Below the pieces are notes generated by a model. That model was not told the DNA's origin. It searched no databases and worked only from the letters and a program-made list of their open reading frames with translations. 64,000 nucleotides of DNA from Deltaproteobacteria bacterium (GTDB lineage: Bacteria; Desulfobacterota; Desulfarculia; Desulfarculales; Desulfarculaceae): positions 30,459-94,458 of the forward strand of contig JAHLLK010000016.1 in NCBI GenBank assembly GCA_020444165.1, written 5' to 3'. This document shows positions 42,213 to 47,602 of this stretch, piece by piece (position 1 is the stretch's first letter; each line of letters opens with the position of its first letter). The translations under genes were made by a program, and so were the position numbers.

Positions 42213-42599
42213 GTGATCTTTTTCCGCCGCAAGAGCCGGGCCTCCCGCCTGCATCCCAATGACCGCCGCGGTTTCTTCCGCCTCAACACCGGCGAAGGCC
42301 TGGAGCTGTACCTCTCCACCTATTACGGCCGCTTCCGGGTGGTGGACCTCAGCGCCGGCGGGGTGGGCCTGAGTCTGTGCAACCTCAAGAAAGGCATGAT
42401 GGTCAACGCCTACCTGGATCTGGAGGACGGCCTGCCCCACGCCAAGGTCACCGTCAAGGTGCGGGGGGTGCGGGGAGGCGGCCGGGTGGGCGGTGAGTTC
42501 GTGCAGATCAGCGAGGAAGACCGCGAGCGGGTGCACCGCTTCGTGCAGAAGCACGAAAAGACGCGCTTGCAAGAGCAGTTCCGCGACGACTGGTTGTAG
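42213..42599 (+). CDS. PilZ-domain protein (first of a tandem pair)
   Basis: A 128-residue PilZ protein likely to bind cyclic di-GMP. The arginine motif is DRRGFFRLN near residue 18 and the second motif is DLSAGGVGL near 45 ([D/N]-x-S-x-x-G). There is a leading basic FFRRKSR. Translation starts at a GTG with GGAG about nine bases before. A near-identical relative follows at 43187-43573. Effector or target unknown. Confidence 0.88.
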   Translation: MIFFRRKSRASRLHPNDRRGFFRLNTGEGLELYLSTYYGRFRVVDLSAGGVGLSLCNLKKGMMVNAYLDLEDGLPHAKVTVKVRGVRGGGRVGGEFVQISEEDRERVHRFVQKHEKTRLQEQFRDDWL

Positions 42600-43186: not shown

Positions 43187-43573
43187 ATGTTGTTCTTCCG
43201 TCGCAAAACCGAGCCTTCCCAAGAGTGCCCCTACGATCGCCGGCGGTCCTACCGTCTCAACACCCGCGAGGGCCTGGAAATCTACCTGTCCACCTATTAC
43301 GGCCGTTTTCAGGTGGTGGATATCAGTGCGGGCGGCGTGGGGCTCGCGCGTTGCCACCTGAAAAAGAACATGCTGGTCAACGCTTACCTGGATCTGGGTG
43401 ACGGAGGGCCCCACTTGGCGGTCACCCTGAAAATCCGGGGCGTGCGGGGAAGGGGCCGCGTGGGCGGGGAGTTCGTGCAGATAAGTGAAGTGGACCGCGA
43501 GCGGGTCCACCGCTTCGTGTGGCAAAACGAGAAGAAGCGCAAGCAGGGACGGTTCCGCGACAATTGGCTCTAG
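43187..43573 (+). CDS. PilZ-domain protein (second of a tandem pair)
   Basis: A 128-residue paralogue of the protein at 42213-42599, the same length and alignable from end to end. DRRRSYRLN near residue 18 and DISAGGVGL near 45 keep the c-di-GMP binding residues. The N-terminus MLFFRRKTEPS and the final RFRDNWL parallel the twin. GGAGG at 43174-43178 precedes the ATG by eight bases. The pair arose by duplication that included the leader sequence. Confidence 0.9.
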   Translation: MLFFRRKTEPSQECPYDRRRSYRLNTREGLEIYLSTYYGRFQVVDISAGGVGLARCHLKKNMLVNAYLDLGDGGPHLAVTLKIRGVRGRGRVGGEFVQISEVDRERVHRFVWQNEKKRKQGRFRDNWL

Positions 43574-43717
43574 CCGCGGGGACCCCGCGCCCCGGAGACT
43601 GGCAGTTTACGCGTTGCCAAGGTCTCTGGCGGGGAAAGGCTGGTCTCGTTGGCAGAGGGAAAGCGGCGGGCGCGCGCCACGGCGGCGGCCCGCCTTTTCC
43701 AGCATCAACTTTCAGCC

Positions 43718-44659
43718 TCACAGCTCCGGGCCACAGAACCGCGGGCGCTGGGACTCGCCCAGCAACTCCAGAGTCACGGCCGGCCCCATCAGGCGGTCCA
43801 ACAGGGCCGCGCTGAGGCTGGGGTCCCGGGCCGGGCCGGAGCCCGCGGCCAGGGGGGTCTGGGACACGGCCACGGTGGCGGCCCGGCCGCATCGTCCCTC
43901 CAGGATGTCCAAAAGCCCGGCGGCTTCCTCCTCCTCCCAGGTCTCCATCCCCCAGTCGTCCAGGATCAACAGGGCCGGCCGGGTGTGCTTCTTCACCAGG
44001 CGCTCGCGCTGGCCGGCCACCCAGGCGGCGGCCCACTCCCGCTTCAGGTCGCCCATGCGGCGGTACAGGGCGCTGCCCCCGCTCAGACAGACCATATGGG
44101 CCAGGGCGCAGGCCAGATAGGTCTTGCCCACCCCGGCCGGGCCCACGATGACCAGGTTGCGGCCCGCGGCGGTCCAGTCCCCGGCGGTCAGCTCGGCCAG
44201 GCGGCAGGGGGTGAGGCCCCGCGGCAGGCTCCAGTCCCAGGCGGCCAGGCGGGCCGGATAGCGGAGTTTGGCCCGGGTGAGGCGGCTGCGGAGCTGGGAC
44301 TCCCGGCGATGCCGCGCCTCCCGGTCCAGCAGTTCGGCCAGGCGCTGGCCGAAGCGGCCCTCGCCTTCGGCGGCCTCCTGCTCGGCCAGGGCCGCGGCCA
44401 TGCCCTTGAGGCGGAGCGAAGTGAGCTTTTCCAGGAGCACGTCGCGGGCCGGGCCGGGGCCCGGCTCCGGAGCCAGGGGACGCACCTTGGGGGCGATGGC
44501 CACGGCCGGAGCCGGGGCGGCCGGCGGGGGCGGAGGGGCCTGGGTTTCTGGCGATTCCGGCGGGGGCAGCTCGGCGGCCAGGGCGGCCACCTGGGGGGCC
44601 AGACGGATACGCCCCAGCGCTTCACCCATGATGTCGGGTAGTTGCCTACGCTTTGCCAT
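43718..44659 (-). CDS. IstB/DnaC-like AAA+ ATPase with N-terminal extension
   Basis: A 313-residue ATPase. Residues about 75-310 match IstB-like proteins: LLEKLTSLRLKGMAAALAEQ, Walker A GPAGVGKT near 171, Walker B LLILDDWG near 227, sensor region AVSQTPL, and the end DRLMGPAVTLELLGESQRPRF. The first 75 residues (Pro/Ala-rich after MAKRRQLPDIMGEALGRIRL) are not part of IstB. There is no IstA transposase and no insertion-sequence end, so it is not an active IS21. Its start overlaps the ParA-like gene by 14 bases, coupling the two. It could load a helicase or a partition partner; unknown. Confidence 0.85.
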   Translation of the reverse strand: MAKRRQLPDIMGEALGRIRLAPQVAALAAELPPPESPETQAPPPPPAAPAPAVAIAPKVRPLAPEPGPGPARDVLLEKLTSLRLKGMAAALAEQEAAEGEGRFGQRLAELLDREARHRRESQLRSRLTRAKLRYPARLAAWDWSLPRGLTPCRLAELTAGDWTAAGRNLVIVGPAGVGKTYLACALAHMVCLSGGSALYRRMGDLKREWAAAWVAGQRERLVKKHTRPALLILDDWGMETWEEEEAAGLLDILEGRCGRAATVAVSQTPLAAGSGPARDPSLSAALLDRLMGPAVTLELLGESQRPRFCGPEL

Positions 44660-46268
44660 GCTTCACCAACCTCTCGCGCACCTCGCGGATGGTCGCCTCC
44701 AGATGGGCCGGGGACACTGCGGCCGCGGCGCGCAGACGCTCCCGCAACACGTTGCGGGTCAGGGGCGCGGCGCCGCCAGCGGCCGGGGCCGACCCGCCCT
44801 CCCCGGGCAGGTTCAGCAGGCGCTCCCGGAGGCTGCCCCGGGCCGGCGGCGGCGGCGGCGCCGCCGCGGCGGCCGGCGGCAACGGCGCGGGCTGGCGCTC
44901 CTCGGGCGGGGCGTTGAGGCGTTCCTTCAGGCTGTGCCGCACCAGCTTGCTCTCGGGGGCCGGACGGGCCTTCTCAGGCAACGGCACCACGGCCAACAGC
45001 GGCGCGCCGGGGGAGGTTCCCCGGGCCGCGGGGAACGTCGGGGACAGCGGCGAGGCGTCGGCCGCGGCCGCGACTTCGACCGTGGGTTCCGTTGGTTCCG
45101 GGGTGACCGACGCGGAGGGCCCCTCCGGCGCGGCGGCCACCGCCGCCGGGGGACGATCCAGGGCCGCGGCTTCCCGCGGGGAGGACTCGGCGGGCGGCTC
45201 CGCCGGCTCCTCCCGGGGCTCCGGCGCCCACGGCGCGGCCGCCAGGGCCGGCTTCTCCTCCGTCGCCGGGGCGGGCAAGGGCGCGACCGCCAGGGCCGGC
45301 TTCTCCTCCGTCGCGGGAGCGGGCAAGGGCGCGGCGGCCGCGTCTGCCGCAGCGGCGGGAGGCTCCGCTGCTACCGGCTCCGGAGCCGCGGGCGCGGGCG
45401 AGGCCAGCGCCGCCCGCCCCGACTTCTTCCGAGGCGCGGGCGGGGGCTGGACCGTGGCCTGGGGCTCCACCCCGGCCAGGCAATCAACGGCCACCCGGTC
45501 CACCAGCTTTTGATAGGACTTGGCGCCGGCGCCTTTGGGCTCGTGCTCAAAGATGGTCTTGCCAAAGGCGGTGGCCTCGGAAAGTTTGACCGAATACTTT
45601 ATCTGGGGCGCCAGTTTGTCGCCGTAGCGCTCCCGGAGCTGCTCCAGGATCTCGCCGCTCTTCTTGACCCGGCCGTCCACAAAGGTGGGCACCACCCAGC
45701 GCAAGCTCAAGCCGGGGTTGTATTTCTGGATCACCCCCAGCCGCTCCTCGAAGCGGGAGAGGCCCTTCAGGGCCATGGGCTCCATGGACACCGGCGAGAG
45801 CACGTCCTGGCAGCAATACAGGGCGTTGACCAACAGGGTGTCCCAGCCGGGCGCCGTGTCCAGGATCATCACGTGGAAACTGCCGTCATACTTGGCCAAG
45901 GTCTCGGCCAGCACCGCTTCCGGGGCCAGCTCCCGCCGGGCGATCTCCATCTTCACCCCGGCCAGGTCGGTGCCGCCGGCCAAAAGCCACAGGTTTTCGC
46001 GGGTTTCGGCCAAGGCCCCCAGGGGGTCCGACCAGCCGGCGATGACCTCGGCCAAGCCTTTCTCAGGGTAACAGCCCAGCATGTCGGAGCATTGGGCCTG
46101 TACGTCGGTGTCCACCAACAGCACCCGGAAGCCCTTGAGGGCCAAGCCGTGGGCCAGGTGGACGGCGGTTTCGCTTTTGGCCACCCCGCCCTTCAACAGG
46201 CTCACCACGATGCGGCGCATGGCGGAACCGGGGGGTTGACCAGGGGAAAAGTCCTTGCTTCCGGGCAT
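44646..46268 (-). CDS. ParA-like ATPase with long Pro/Ala-rich tail and repeated LRERL motif
   Basis: A 540-residue protein. Residues about 16-265 are a ParA/Soj ATPase: the deviant Walker A is LKGGVAKSETA (KS for the usual KT), then VDTDVQAQCSDMLG, ILDTAPGWDTLLVNAL and a partition-like EILEQLRERYG. A disordered Pro/Ala/Glu-rich tail of about 270 residues follows. It includes a 16-residue tandem repeat (DNA period 48 at 45241-45336) and four copies of an L-[KR]-E-R-L-type motif: SLKERL near 446, SLRERL near 479, VLRERL near 507 and VRERL near 530. The ATG at 46268 has GGAGG eight bases before it. It is coupled to the IstB-like gene. ParB and parS are not seen. Confidence 0.85.
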   Translation of the reverse strand: MPGSKDFSPGQPPGSAMRRIVVSLLKGGVAKSETAVHLAHGLALKGFRVLLVDTDVQAQCSDMLGCYPEKGLAEVIAGWSDPLGALAETRENLWLLAGGTDLAGVKMEIARRELAPEAVLAETLAKYDGSFHVMILDTAPGWDTLLVNALYCCQDVLSPVSMEPMALKGLSRFEERLGVIQKYNPGLSLRWVVPTFVDGRVKKSGEILEQLRERYGDKLAPQIKYSVKLSEATAFGKTIFEHEPKGAGAKSYQKLVDRVAVDCLAGVEPQATVQPPPAPRKKSGRAALASPAPAAPEPVAAEPPAAAADAAAAPLPAPATEEKPALAVAPLPAPATEEKPALAAAPWAPEPREEPAEPPAESSPREAAALDRPPAAVAAAPEGPSASVTPEPTEPTVEVAAAADASPLSPTFPAARGTSPGAPLLAVVPLPEKARPAPESKLVRHSLKERLNAPPEERQPAPLPPAAAAAPPPPPARGSLRERLLNLPGEGGSAPAAGGAAPLTRNVLRERLRAAAAVSPAHLEATIREVRERLVKHGKA

Positions 46269-46783
46269 CTTGCCAGCCTCCAGAAGAATGGCCGGGGCAG
46301 CGGCGCAGGGTGCACAAAAAGGTTCGCAAATTTTTTTGCAAGGAAGGTGCCCAAGCCAGGGACTTTGCGAAGCAAATCGGATATTATGATTTTTGTATCA
46401 TGATTTTGACAGGTTACGTTGGGGAGCCCTAGCAGAACATTTTCCGGAGAGCAAAGGAAAGCTTTCTGCAGCGGCGCGTAAATTCCATTTGGTAATTAAA
46501 TAGCGGTCTTCGGCTGGCGGAAAAGCCAGGCTCCGCAATTAAAGCAATTACTATAATATTGACCTTTGGCTATGAAACTCCCTCCGGAACCGCATTTTCG
46601 GGCACTTCCCACCCCGTACTGGGGCAGCGTGGGTTATGATGTCCCCAGCCCAACCCGCAGGCGTTTCCCCAGGGTTTATGGGGAACGGGGCAAGCGGGCC
46701 CCTCTTTACCAGCCCCCTTTCCCCTGGCATTTTTGACGTCACGTCAATTTTTCTTGAATTTTGCCGGTGCGGACCCCATAAAT
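46269..46783. other. AT-rich divergent spacer with inverted repeats
   Basis: No gene was found in these 515 bases, which are clearly AT-richer than average. An 8-bp inverted repeat, TTCGCAAA (46323-46330) / TTTGCGAA (46364-46371), lies just upstream of the ParA-like gene. TGTCAA and CATAAT on the minus strand, 17 bases apart within 46385-46415, could be its promoter. The toxin-antitoxin operator is listed separately. Confidence 0.5.
46733..46747. promoter_or_regulatory. Palindrome upstream of the toxin-antitoxin pair
   Basis: TTGACGTCACGTCAA is a perfect 7-bp inverted repeat around one base, 36 bases before the first gene of the pair. Its left arm could also serve as a -35 element. The helix-turn-helix protein encoded downstream is the likely ligand, giving autoregulation as in mqsRA-type systems. 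Confidence 0.6.
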
Positions 46784-47062
46784 ATGGACAGAGTCAAAGC
46801 CAGGGAAAATATCCGCCATGCCGTCAAGTGGGGATGCGTGCACATCTCTGCCCATTGTCGCCAGCGCATGGTGCAAAGGTGCGTTAGCATCGACGACATT
46901 AGCCATGTCCTCTCGTGGGGGACGTTGCAGAGCCTCGAACCCGGCCCCGAACCCGACTCCTGGAAATGCCAGGTGCAAGGCGGCGATCTGGACGGGGATG
47001 AATTGGTGGTGCATGTTCTGATCAAACCCCAGCAGGATCTCATCCTCATCACCGTCTATTGA
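46784..47062 (+). CDS. DUF4258-family protein, probable toxin
   Basis: A 92-residue protein of the DUF4258 type: a helical N-terminus with HISAHCRQRMVQRCVSIDDI (the H-x2-H/R-x2-R region), then strands ending VHVLIKPQQDLILITVY. Such proteins are predicted RNases that pair with MqsA-like antitoxins, as here. The start is the ATG at 46784; an upstream TTG-like start would overlap the operator palindrome. It comes first in the pair, toxin before antitoxin, as in mqsRA. Confidence 0.75.
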   Translation: MDRVKARENIRHAVKWGCVHISAHCRQRMVQRCVSIDDISHVLSWGTLQSLEPGPEPDSWKCQVQGGDLDGDELVVHVLIKPQQDLILITVY

Positions 47063-47101
47063 GGTTTTCATGGCCCAGCCGAAAAGAGGAAGGAAGTAGA
47101 C

Positions 47102-47602
47102 ATGTTGTGCCCCACCTGTGGCCGGGAAATGGCAAGCCGGCTCGGCACGCATCACTATATCGAGTCCGGCCTGCCCAACGTCTGGCTGAAGGGCGTGGAG
47201 ACGCATAGTTGCGTTTGTGGCGAGGAAATGGTGGGAATTCCCCGCCTCGCCCAGCTCAACAGCCGCATCGGCCGAGACCTCCTGACCAAACCTTTCCTCT
47301 TGAACGGACCGGAGATTCGCTTCTTGCGCAAGAACATGGGCGTTTTGGCCAAGGAGCTGGCTGAACTCATGGCCGTGGCCCCGGAGACCATCTCCCGGTG
47401 GGAAAACGACAAGCAAGCTATCGAGGCTTCCAATGATCGTTTGTTGCGCCTGATCTATGCCGGCCGCAAAGGCCTGAAGTATGCCGAGACCGAAGCCAGC
47501 TTTTCGGGGATCGAAACGCGGCAGTTGCCCGGCCCGGACATCGTAATCGCGGCCGGCAAGCTGGGCCGGGATGGGGAGGACGGCCCCGGCTGCGCGGCCT
47601 GA
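47102..47602 (+). CDS. MqsA/YgiT-like antitoxin with zinc finger and helix-turn-helix
   Basis: A 166-residue protein. The N-terminal zinc-binding part has MLCPTCG and CVCG (CxxC...CxCG), as in YgiT/MqsA. A Xre-type helix-turn-helix (FLRKNMGVLAKELAELMAVAPETISRWEND, about residues 78-107) follows. The C-terminal tail is poorly conserved. AGAGGAAGG precedes the ATG. It should bind the toxin and repress the pair at the palindrome upstream. Confidence 0.88.
   Translation: MLCPTCGREMASRLGTHHYIESGLPNVWLKGVETHSCVCGEEMVGIPRLAQLNSRIGRDLLTKPFLLNGPEIRFLRKNMGVLAKELAELMAVAPETISRWENDKQAIEASNDRLLRLIYAGRKGLKYAETEASFSGIETRQLPGPDIVIAAGKLGRDGEDGPGCAA

Follow-up and report, generated by a model that had tools for sequence, protein, structure and literature searches.

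The ParA-IstB Gene Pair

The window analyzed here, a stretch of 64,000 nucleotides from contig JAHLLK010000016.1 of a Desulfarculaceae bacterium, contains on its minus strand two overlapping genes, one encoding a ParA/Soj-type ATPase (44646-46268, 540 amino acids) and the other an AAA+ ATPase of the IS21 IstB type (43718-44659, 313 amino acids). The ParA gene comes first, the IstB-like gene lies directly downstream, and the two share 14 bp (44646-44659). Both open reading frames (ORFs) were confirmed, and a first-pass annotation of this DNA had placed them correctly in strand, coordinates and overlap; its assignments of the two products also hold, with Pfam E-values of 5.3e-26 for AAA_31 in the ParA protein and 2.6e-42 for IstB_IS21 (PF01695; 145.4 bits, with a cut-off of 24.1) in its partner. 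Here we describe this pair as a conserved chromosomal operon, the second member of which may dock on ParA through a short N-terminal tag.

The conserved core of the ParA protein (residues ~17-262) also matches the Pfam families CbiA, ParA and MipZ above cut-off. Its closest solved structure is Soj (1wcv, E-value 2.3e-33), and AlphaFold2 models it with block values of the predicted local distance difference test (pLDDT) of 74-96. With its deviant Walker A motif KGGVAKS, signature lysine and profile match, the protein belongs to the A/D ATPase family. The same motif was initially taken for an altered Walker A; it is the ordinary deviant ParA form, present in 61 of 66 close homologues, the others having KGGVAKT (two) or lacking the region (three). 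The named relatives come from Desulfarculaceae and other Deltaproteobacteria.

The IstB-like protein has the Walker A motif GPAGVGKT, the Walker B motif LDDWG and a C-terminal DRL. IstB of IS5376 (8q3w) is both its top Foldseek match (7.4e-17) and the closest solved relative by family profile (1.6e-42), and the NCBIfam equivalog IS21_help_AAA scores 170.8 bits, below its 200-bit cut-off. The Walker A glycines and lysine and the Walker B DD are kept in all 14 pair partners compared, as is the basic residue R118, while R126 occurs in at least 90%; the DD is also present in 110 of 113 close IstB matches. In a phylogenetic tree, the 14 partners are split with support 98/99 from 30 other IstB proteins, of which the three checked for it stand beside an IstA. 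The branches of the partner clade are mostly longer than those of other IstB proteins, and the long end branches leave the order inside the group unsure.

A tblastn search with three IstA proteins gave no match in the 64-kb window, in agreement with the earlier statement that IstA is absent, nor in the DNA on either side of the pair in eight relatives; the same search recovered its positive control, an IstA gene in a Desulfocarbo genome. Thus istA directly upstream of istB, the arrangement of IS21, was found neither in the window nor in those flanks. No IS21 ends were recognized among the 25 longest of 315 inverted repeat pairs in 43560-46760, and all 25 are imperfect. The absence of ParB, also stated earlier, stands for the 11 neighboring ORFs scanned with Pfam, a scan that did not cover the rest of the 64 kb. 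The gene adjacent to parA, where ParABS systems would have parB, encodes a PF01695 IstB protein in the window and an IstB-like protein in the relatives.

The two genes travel together. In a survey of 21 genomes of the order, eight carry this ParA (E-value 2.4e-172 or better), and the same eight carry an adjacent full-length partner with no stop within the matched frames; the other 13 have neither gene of this type. Seven of the eight carriers are represented by contig loci retrieved with a ParA profile, and in 7/7 the IstB-like gene is directly downstream, overlapping by 14 bp in L004 and L005, as in the window, and separated by 4-31 bp in L001, L002, L003, L006 and L007. A further ParA match of another type (1e-32 to 1e-42) is found in all eight carriers and in ten of the 13 non-carriers. 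Over the 28 pairwise comparisons between loci, the ParA cores are 71-93% and the AAA+ bodies 33-82% identical. Flanking genes vary, though several loci have neighbors in common, and none of them is constant across the seven loci and suited as cargo. The first-pass annotation had named two observations that would speak against its proposal, namely IstA or IS21 ends adjoining the pair in relatives and independent occurrence of the two genes; no IstA match was found in the flanks of the eight relatives, and neither gene of this type was found alone in the 21 genomes. From the co-occurrence, the absence of an IstA match and the separate IstB clade, we conclude that the pair is a conserved chromosomal operon and not an IS21 remnant.

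An N-Terminal Tag Resembling That of Small Partners of Related ParA Proteins

The first 17 residues of the IstB-like protein (44609-44659, minus strand; MAKRRQLPDIMGEALGR) form a tag, which we propose to be a ParA-docking peptide. Its core PDIMGEALG (44612-44638, minus strand) is near-invariant in 14 pair members. The partners usually start with MA-x-R-x-Q-L-P-D-I-M-G-E-A-L-G-R or a close variant, followed by a variable linker and then the IstB body. In L002, L003, L006 and L007 a different start precedes the same core (e.g., MSSFKNAPDIMGEALGR in L002), and in L001 the core has diverged to PGLMEEAFG. Given the lower identity of the AAA+ bodies than of the ParA cores, the tag core is kept while the body behind it drifts. 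In the predicted model the tag has low pLDDT and a short helix at residues 10-14. None of 113 other IstB matches has a counterpart of the tag within its N-terminal 40 residues, and when the N-terminal 60 residues of one relative served as query, ten proteins including the query were returned, all with an IstB domain and with E-values up to 0.67.

A counterpart of the tag was found beside related ParA proteins. In a draw of 395 genomes from the phylum, at least 18 have a ParA match at 1e-60 or better, five of them of the pair type and 13 at 1e-92 to 1e-106; in another class, at least 70 of 257 genomes have a match, both counts being lower bounds since few candidates were scored per genome. In the 14 loci from the 13 genomes, the ParA core is preceded by a zinc-ribbon-like CxxC start, has no long tail, and, L087 excepted, carries the Walker A motif KGGVGKT; PF13717 was confirmed in both of the zinc-ribbon ParA proteins tested. 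Among 54 related stretches (L074-L087, L089-L128), ParA could be parsed in 47, with CxxC ahead of the core in every one. A tree joins 17 pair-type and 16 zinc-ribbon ParA proteins in one clade (100/100) apart from 16 other ParA proteins of the order, and the pair-type proteins form one clade within it (100/99).

A PilZ gene is present in 47 of the 54 stretches, as judged by a model seeded partly with five of those stretches and the PilZ genes of the window. PilZ, a ribbon-helix-helix (RHH)-like protein and zinc-ribbon ParA make up an operon widespread in the phylum, with the small RHH-look protein standing beside PilZ. Small partners were picked by regular expression in 33 of the 54 loci. Gibbs sampling on these proteins alone yielded the N-terminal motif xD[IV][LM]xxLL in 33 proteins, one of which (L086) was spurious and was removed before a matrix was built; in 29 of the remaining 32, the motif lies at most 9 residues from the chosen start. 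On the matrix, built from 25 distinct windows of these small RHH-like partners, PDIMGEALG scores 14.2, and 11 of the 14 partner tags reach 14.2-15.5, more than any of 549 controls (436 ORFs at 9.0 or below and 113 IstB matches at 4.9 or below). A model of the small partners found no match at E-value 0.01 in the eight carriers, with a positive control (G329) at 3.5e-34; thus the RHH partner of type Ib partition systems was not detected with this model in the carrier genomes. By these comparisons, a docking element at the N-terminal tag of the IstB-like protein is better supported than one on the ParA tail described below.

Plasmid relatives of this ParA occur in Pseudodesulfovibrio and Rhabdochlamydia (L130:3001-4105, on plasmid paDPRO, and L129:3001-4144). 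They are 44-49% identical to it over the core, and the gene after each encodes a small protein judged RHH-like by eye. The small protein of the Pseudodesulfovibrio plasmid begins with MVKKKKETMPDMFGDD, with ESALGR shortly after, and in paDPRO the small protein carries the tag-like stretch MPDMFG close to its N-terminus.

IstB-type genes are also found away from the pair. The Desulfocarbo genome contains a separate IstA-IstB pair (L025), the IstB of which resembles the partner family, has no tag, and scored 327 bits on the first partner profile, compared with 198 bits for the tagged partner of the same organism. In one order genome without the pair (G010), 24 strong IstB-type matches fall into three groups by score and may reflect a large expansion of IS21. 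At least 16 loci on viral contigs have IstB-type matches, and those listed all start at query residue 38 or later, that is, without the tag. In phage records, ParA was not matched at 1e-40.

CdbA/CdbS (RHH and PilZ) of Myxococcus, the only candidate that a search of the open-access PMC literature listed, was considered as a possible known version of the PilZ-RHH-ParA operon. It was rejected on the published description: in the excerpts of PMC7156744 and PMC10313047, cdbS does not belong to an operon and is separate from cdbAB, the only mentions of ParA concern ParABS and PomZ, and homologues of CdbA were not identified outside Myxococcales.

The C-Terminal Tail of ParA

From residue ~264 to residue 540 (44649-45479, minus strand), the ParA protein continues in a tail rich in proline, alanine and glutamate, and the AlphaFold2 model supports, for most of it, the earlier description as a long disordered region: block pLDDT is 40-63 up to residue 500 and 56-79 beyond. 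The model consists of coil and helices at 447-451, 480-483, 506-516 and 520-537, which coincide with LxxRL motifs or the C-terminus. Four L-[KR]-E-R-L motifs had been counted in the tail. Three are strict, LKERL at residues 447-451 (44916-44930) and LRERL at 480-484 (44817-44831), both predicted short helices, and LRERL at 508-512 (44733-44747); the fourth is a degenerate VRERL at 530-534 (44667-44681) within the C-terminal helix, all on the minus strand. In the third motif, L508, R511 and L512 are conserved in at least 90% of 40 aligned sequences.

The recurrence is well above chance. Three L[KR]ERL motifs in this tail compare with 0.002 expected, and none of 20,000 shuffles of the tail gave three. 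Tails were parsed from 53 of 72 sequences, 32 of them left after redundancy filtering, and these contain 61 LxxRL motifs, compared with 2.3 in shuffles (maximum 9); at least one motif is present in 28 of the 32 tails and at least two in 23. The long tail was seen solely in the ParA branch with an IstB partner and is missing from the 14 zinc-ribbon loci. With LxxRL a family feature of the tail and with related ParA proteins tail-less, the tail and the IstB partner occur together. The LxxRL helices may dock IstB or another protein multivalently.

Upstream Region and Neighboring Genes

A sigma-54-type promoter match, GGGCACCTTCCTTGCA (46337-46352, minus strand), precedes the ParA start codon (ATG, 46268) by 69-84 bp. 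It agrees with 10 of 12 letters of the -24/-12 consensus; a match required at least 10 of the 12 letters with GG and GC kept. Such a match starts 105-145 bp before the conserved MRRI/MRRL start in 9/9 pair loci (the window, L001-L007 and L088), some of which have common neighborhoods and so are not fully independent. Letter shuffles matched 0.11 loci on average and 2/9 at most in 2,000, and only one of 161 control upstream regions has a match (169 minus eight that contain the pair's own site). Within ~400 bp of the related PilZ-RHH-ParA operons the frequency is 1/45, which points to a possible difference in regulation between the two branches. The predicted sigma-54 control suggests conditional expression of the pair.

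An 8-bp inverted repeat reported upstream of the pair was not found. A scan of 46200-46760 that allowed loops of up to 30 gave just two perfect repeats with arms of at least 7 bp, at 46665-46685 and 46733-46747, each more than 390 bp upstream of the pair. The latter, the palindrome TTGACGT-C-ACGTCAA with 7-bp arms, adjoins a DUF4258 ORF followed by an MqsA-family antitoxin-like gene (46733-47602, plus strand; TIGR03830 above cut-off), just upstream of them; the likely true start of the DUF4258 ORF is 46784. The two genes are a probable toxin-antitoxin pair, the upstream repeat probably belongs to it, and the palindrome is perhaps its operator.

On the other side, two similar PilZ-domain genes in the opposite orientation adjoin the pair (42213-42599 and 43187-43573, plus strand). 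PilZ was considered as an obligate third component and rejected: it adjoins the pair in the window, yet none of the flanks of the eight relatives has a match.

Discussion

On balance, and with modest confidence, we favor the view that the two genes encode a two-component system for positioning or partition on the nucleoid, in which a small partner was replaced by an IstB protein that keeps the ParA-docking tag. The tag motif shared by the two kinds of partner, together with the common ParA lineage, suggests that the partner was swapped and the docking tag kept. ATP-bound ParA dimers would coat the nucleoid. The IstB-like protein, a putatively domesticated IS21 helper that keeps its ATPase motifs, would assemble on DNA as an ATP-controlled oligomer and display many copies of its N-terminal tag, with the core PDIMGEALG, to nucleoid-bound ParA. 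The tags would dock on ParA and trigger its ATPase, and IstB-marked DNA or cargo would thereby be positioned along the nucleoid, as with ParB or RHH partners. In evolutionary terms, a small RHH-like partner would have been exchanged for IstB, with the tag retained. Two published observations are in line with this scheme. In ParA-family partners, the N-terminus binds the ATPase and the remainder handles the cargo, N-terminal docking being a mode common to partners that otherwise vary widely (excerpts of PMC10241942), and IstB dimers with ATP form a decamer that wraps DNA and leaves flexible N-terminal domains outside (excerpts of PMC11208146). If both apply here, the IstB-like oligomer would show many tags.

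Of the proposal in the first-pass annotation, that a partition ATPase and an IstB-like ATPase work together independently of an insertion sequence, the central idea survives since no IstA match adjoins the pair in eight relatives and the genes were never found apart in 21 genomes; an altered Walker A, four identical motifs and the upstream repeat, offered along with it, do not. To judge by title and abstract opening, no ParA-IstB pair is described in any of the papers listed by searches of the open-access PMC literature.

Several observations weigh against the favored view. Three of the 14 tags score low on the matrix (6.8, 6.8 and -7.4), the stretch RDVLLEKLT at residue 72 of the window protein itself scores 10.2, and shuffled N-termini reach 9.7 at the 99.9% point and 15.0 at maximum. 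The 14 tags represent one lineage, so the motif match amounts to about one independent observation, and the likeness between the tag and the small-partner motif was noticed by eye before the matrix was built. The tag core is acidic, unlike the ParB motif with its central Arg/Lys (PMC12462528). The RHH label of the small partners is weak, with RHH_3 matches in four of 24 proteins (best 3.8e-4); a search of the PDB with their profile gave nothing useful, and neither plasmid small neighbor has a Pfam RHH match. The zinc-ribbon ParA proteins are joined in one sister clade with support of only 88/89, and the program warned of long branches. Finally, no centromere- or parS-like site was found in the nine upstream regions, where no 9-mer is present in more than three of the nine and shuffles give 2-3.

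Among the other explanations, the one that survives best, unlikely as we hold it to be, is that the likeness of the tags arose by convergence or chance, with IstB contacting ParA via the LxxRL tail and the tag binding something else. The strong over-representation and predicted helicity of LxxRL and the restriction of the tail to the ParA branch with an IstB partner would fit this explanation, as would the brevity of the motif, the single lineage of the tags and the three low scores among the 14. Yet the tag occupies the same N-terminal position as the small-partner motif, in a gene that adjoins related ParA proteins, and its scores lie beyond all 549 controls; moreover, N-terminal docking is described as a mode common to ParA partners (excerpts of PMC10241942).

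It is quite unlikely, in our estimate, that what the system positions is a protein complex (a machine of motility, of the envelope or of another kind under sigma-54 control) and not DNA, with the IstB-like body as a cargo adaptor. This would be consistent with the sigma-54-type match in all nine loci, with an AAA+ body that diverges rapidly although the tag core is conserved, and with the CheW/CheR-like genes (by eye) a few kb off in L002 and L006. However, the Walker A and B residues and R118 are kept in 14/14 partners and R126 in at least 90%, the RHH-like partners beside related ParA proteins point to DNA, and no constant cargo-like neighbor was found in the seven loci.

A role in replication control, with the IstB-like protein acting as a DnaC/DnaI-like helicase loader or initiator cofactor regulated by ParA, appears decidedly unlikely. 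Soj is a regulator of DnaA, the IstB-like protein matches DnaC, DnaI and DnaA more weakly in both fold and sequence, and the pair in Desulfocarbo indianensis SCBM (L005) follows genes taken by eye for dnaG and rpoD. However, IstB is far closer than DnaI, both by profile (8q3w at 1.6e-42 versus 2.2e-13) and by Foldseek (7.4e-17 versus 7.1e-8), the flanks differ between genomes, the tag looks like the one on an RHH-like partner, and 13 of 21 order genomes manage without the pair. A decayed IS21 element or chance neighbors, suggested by the IS21 IstB domain of the partner, can be set aside as having a nearly negligible probability, given adjacency in 8/8 carriers, partner frames without stops, the lack of an IstA match and the separate clade.

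The favored view of a swapped partner with a retained tag may be extended, tentatively, to a luggage-tag transfer: an RHH partition tag joined to a transposon DNA-clamping AAA+ protein, so that an ATP-gated IstB oligomer would take the role that the CTP-gated ParB clamp has in other systems, with the LxxRL tail as a grip and sigma-54 control. We regard this fuller scheme as possible, with less confidence than the view that it extends. The pair seems to offer a natural example of a partner whose body gave way to an unrelated NTPase with little change in a short tag, so that a single peptide, tried on both kinds of ParA, could test the tag hypothesis. Should the IstB-like protein have kept its ATP-controlled clamping of DNA, it would represent a second solution, ATP for CTP, to the problem solved by ParB, as well as a transposon helper that has become a cellular positioning factor.

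Comparison with Known Systems

In McdA-McdB, PomZ-PomX and PpfA-TlpT, as in the scheme proposed here, a short N-terminal stretch joins varied partners to one kind of motor; unlike the IstB-like protein, those partners are not described, in the excerpts of PMC10241942, as a second ATPase of transposon origin. IstB of IS21 has the same domain, fold and DD Walker B as the partner studied here, whereas the latter has no adjoining IstA match and has gained an N-terminal tag and linker. The pair differs from the chromosomal ParABS systems (Soj-Spo0J/ParB) in that no ParB (among the neighboring ORFs) or parS was found and its ParA falls in a separate clade; it is similar to them in the ParA core, the nearest PDB entry being Soj 1wcv, and, by analogy, in a docking peptide that would be carried at the N-terminus of an NTP-controlled DNA clamp. 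The plasmid type Ib systems, such as ParF-ParG and delta-omega, combine ParA with an RHH protein. Unlike them, the pair has an AAA+ ATPase as partner, a ParA with a long LxxRL tail and no centromere site found. Like them, it has a ParA without an N-terminal DNA-binding domain and an adjacent partner. In type Ib systems the N-terminus of the partner is the activator, and the tag of the IstB-like protein, similar in sequence to the N-terminal motif seen in the RHH-like partners of the related chromosomal ParA proteins described in this study, may be a counterpart of it.

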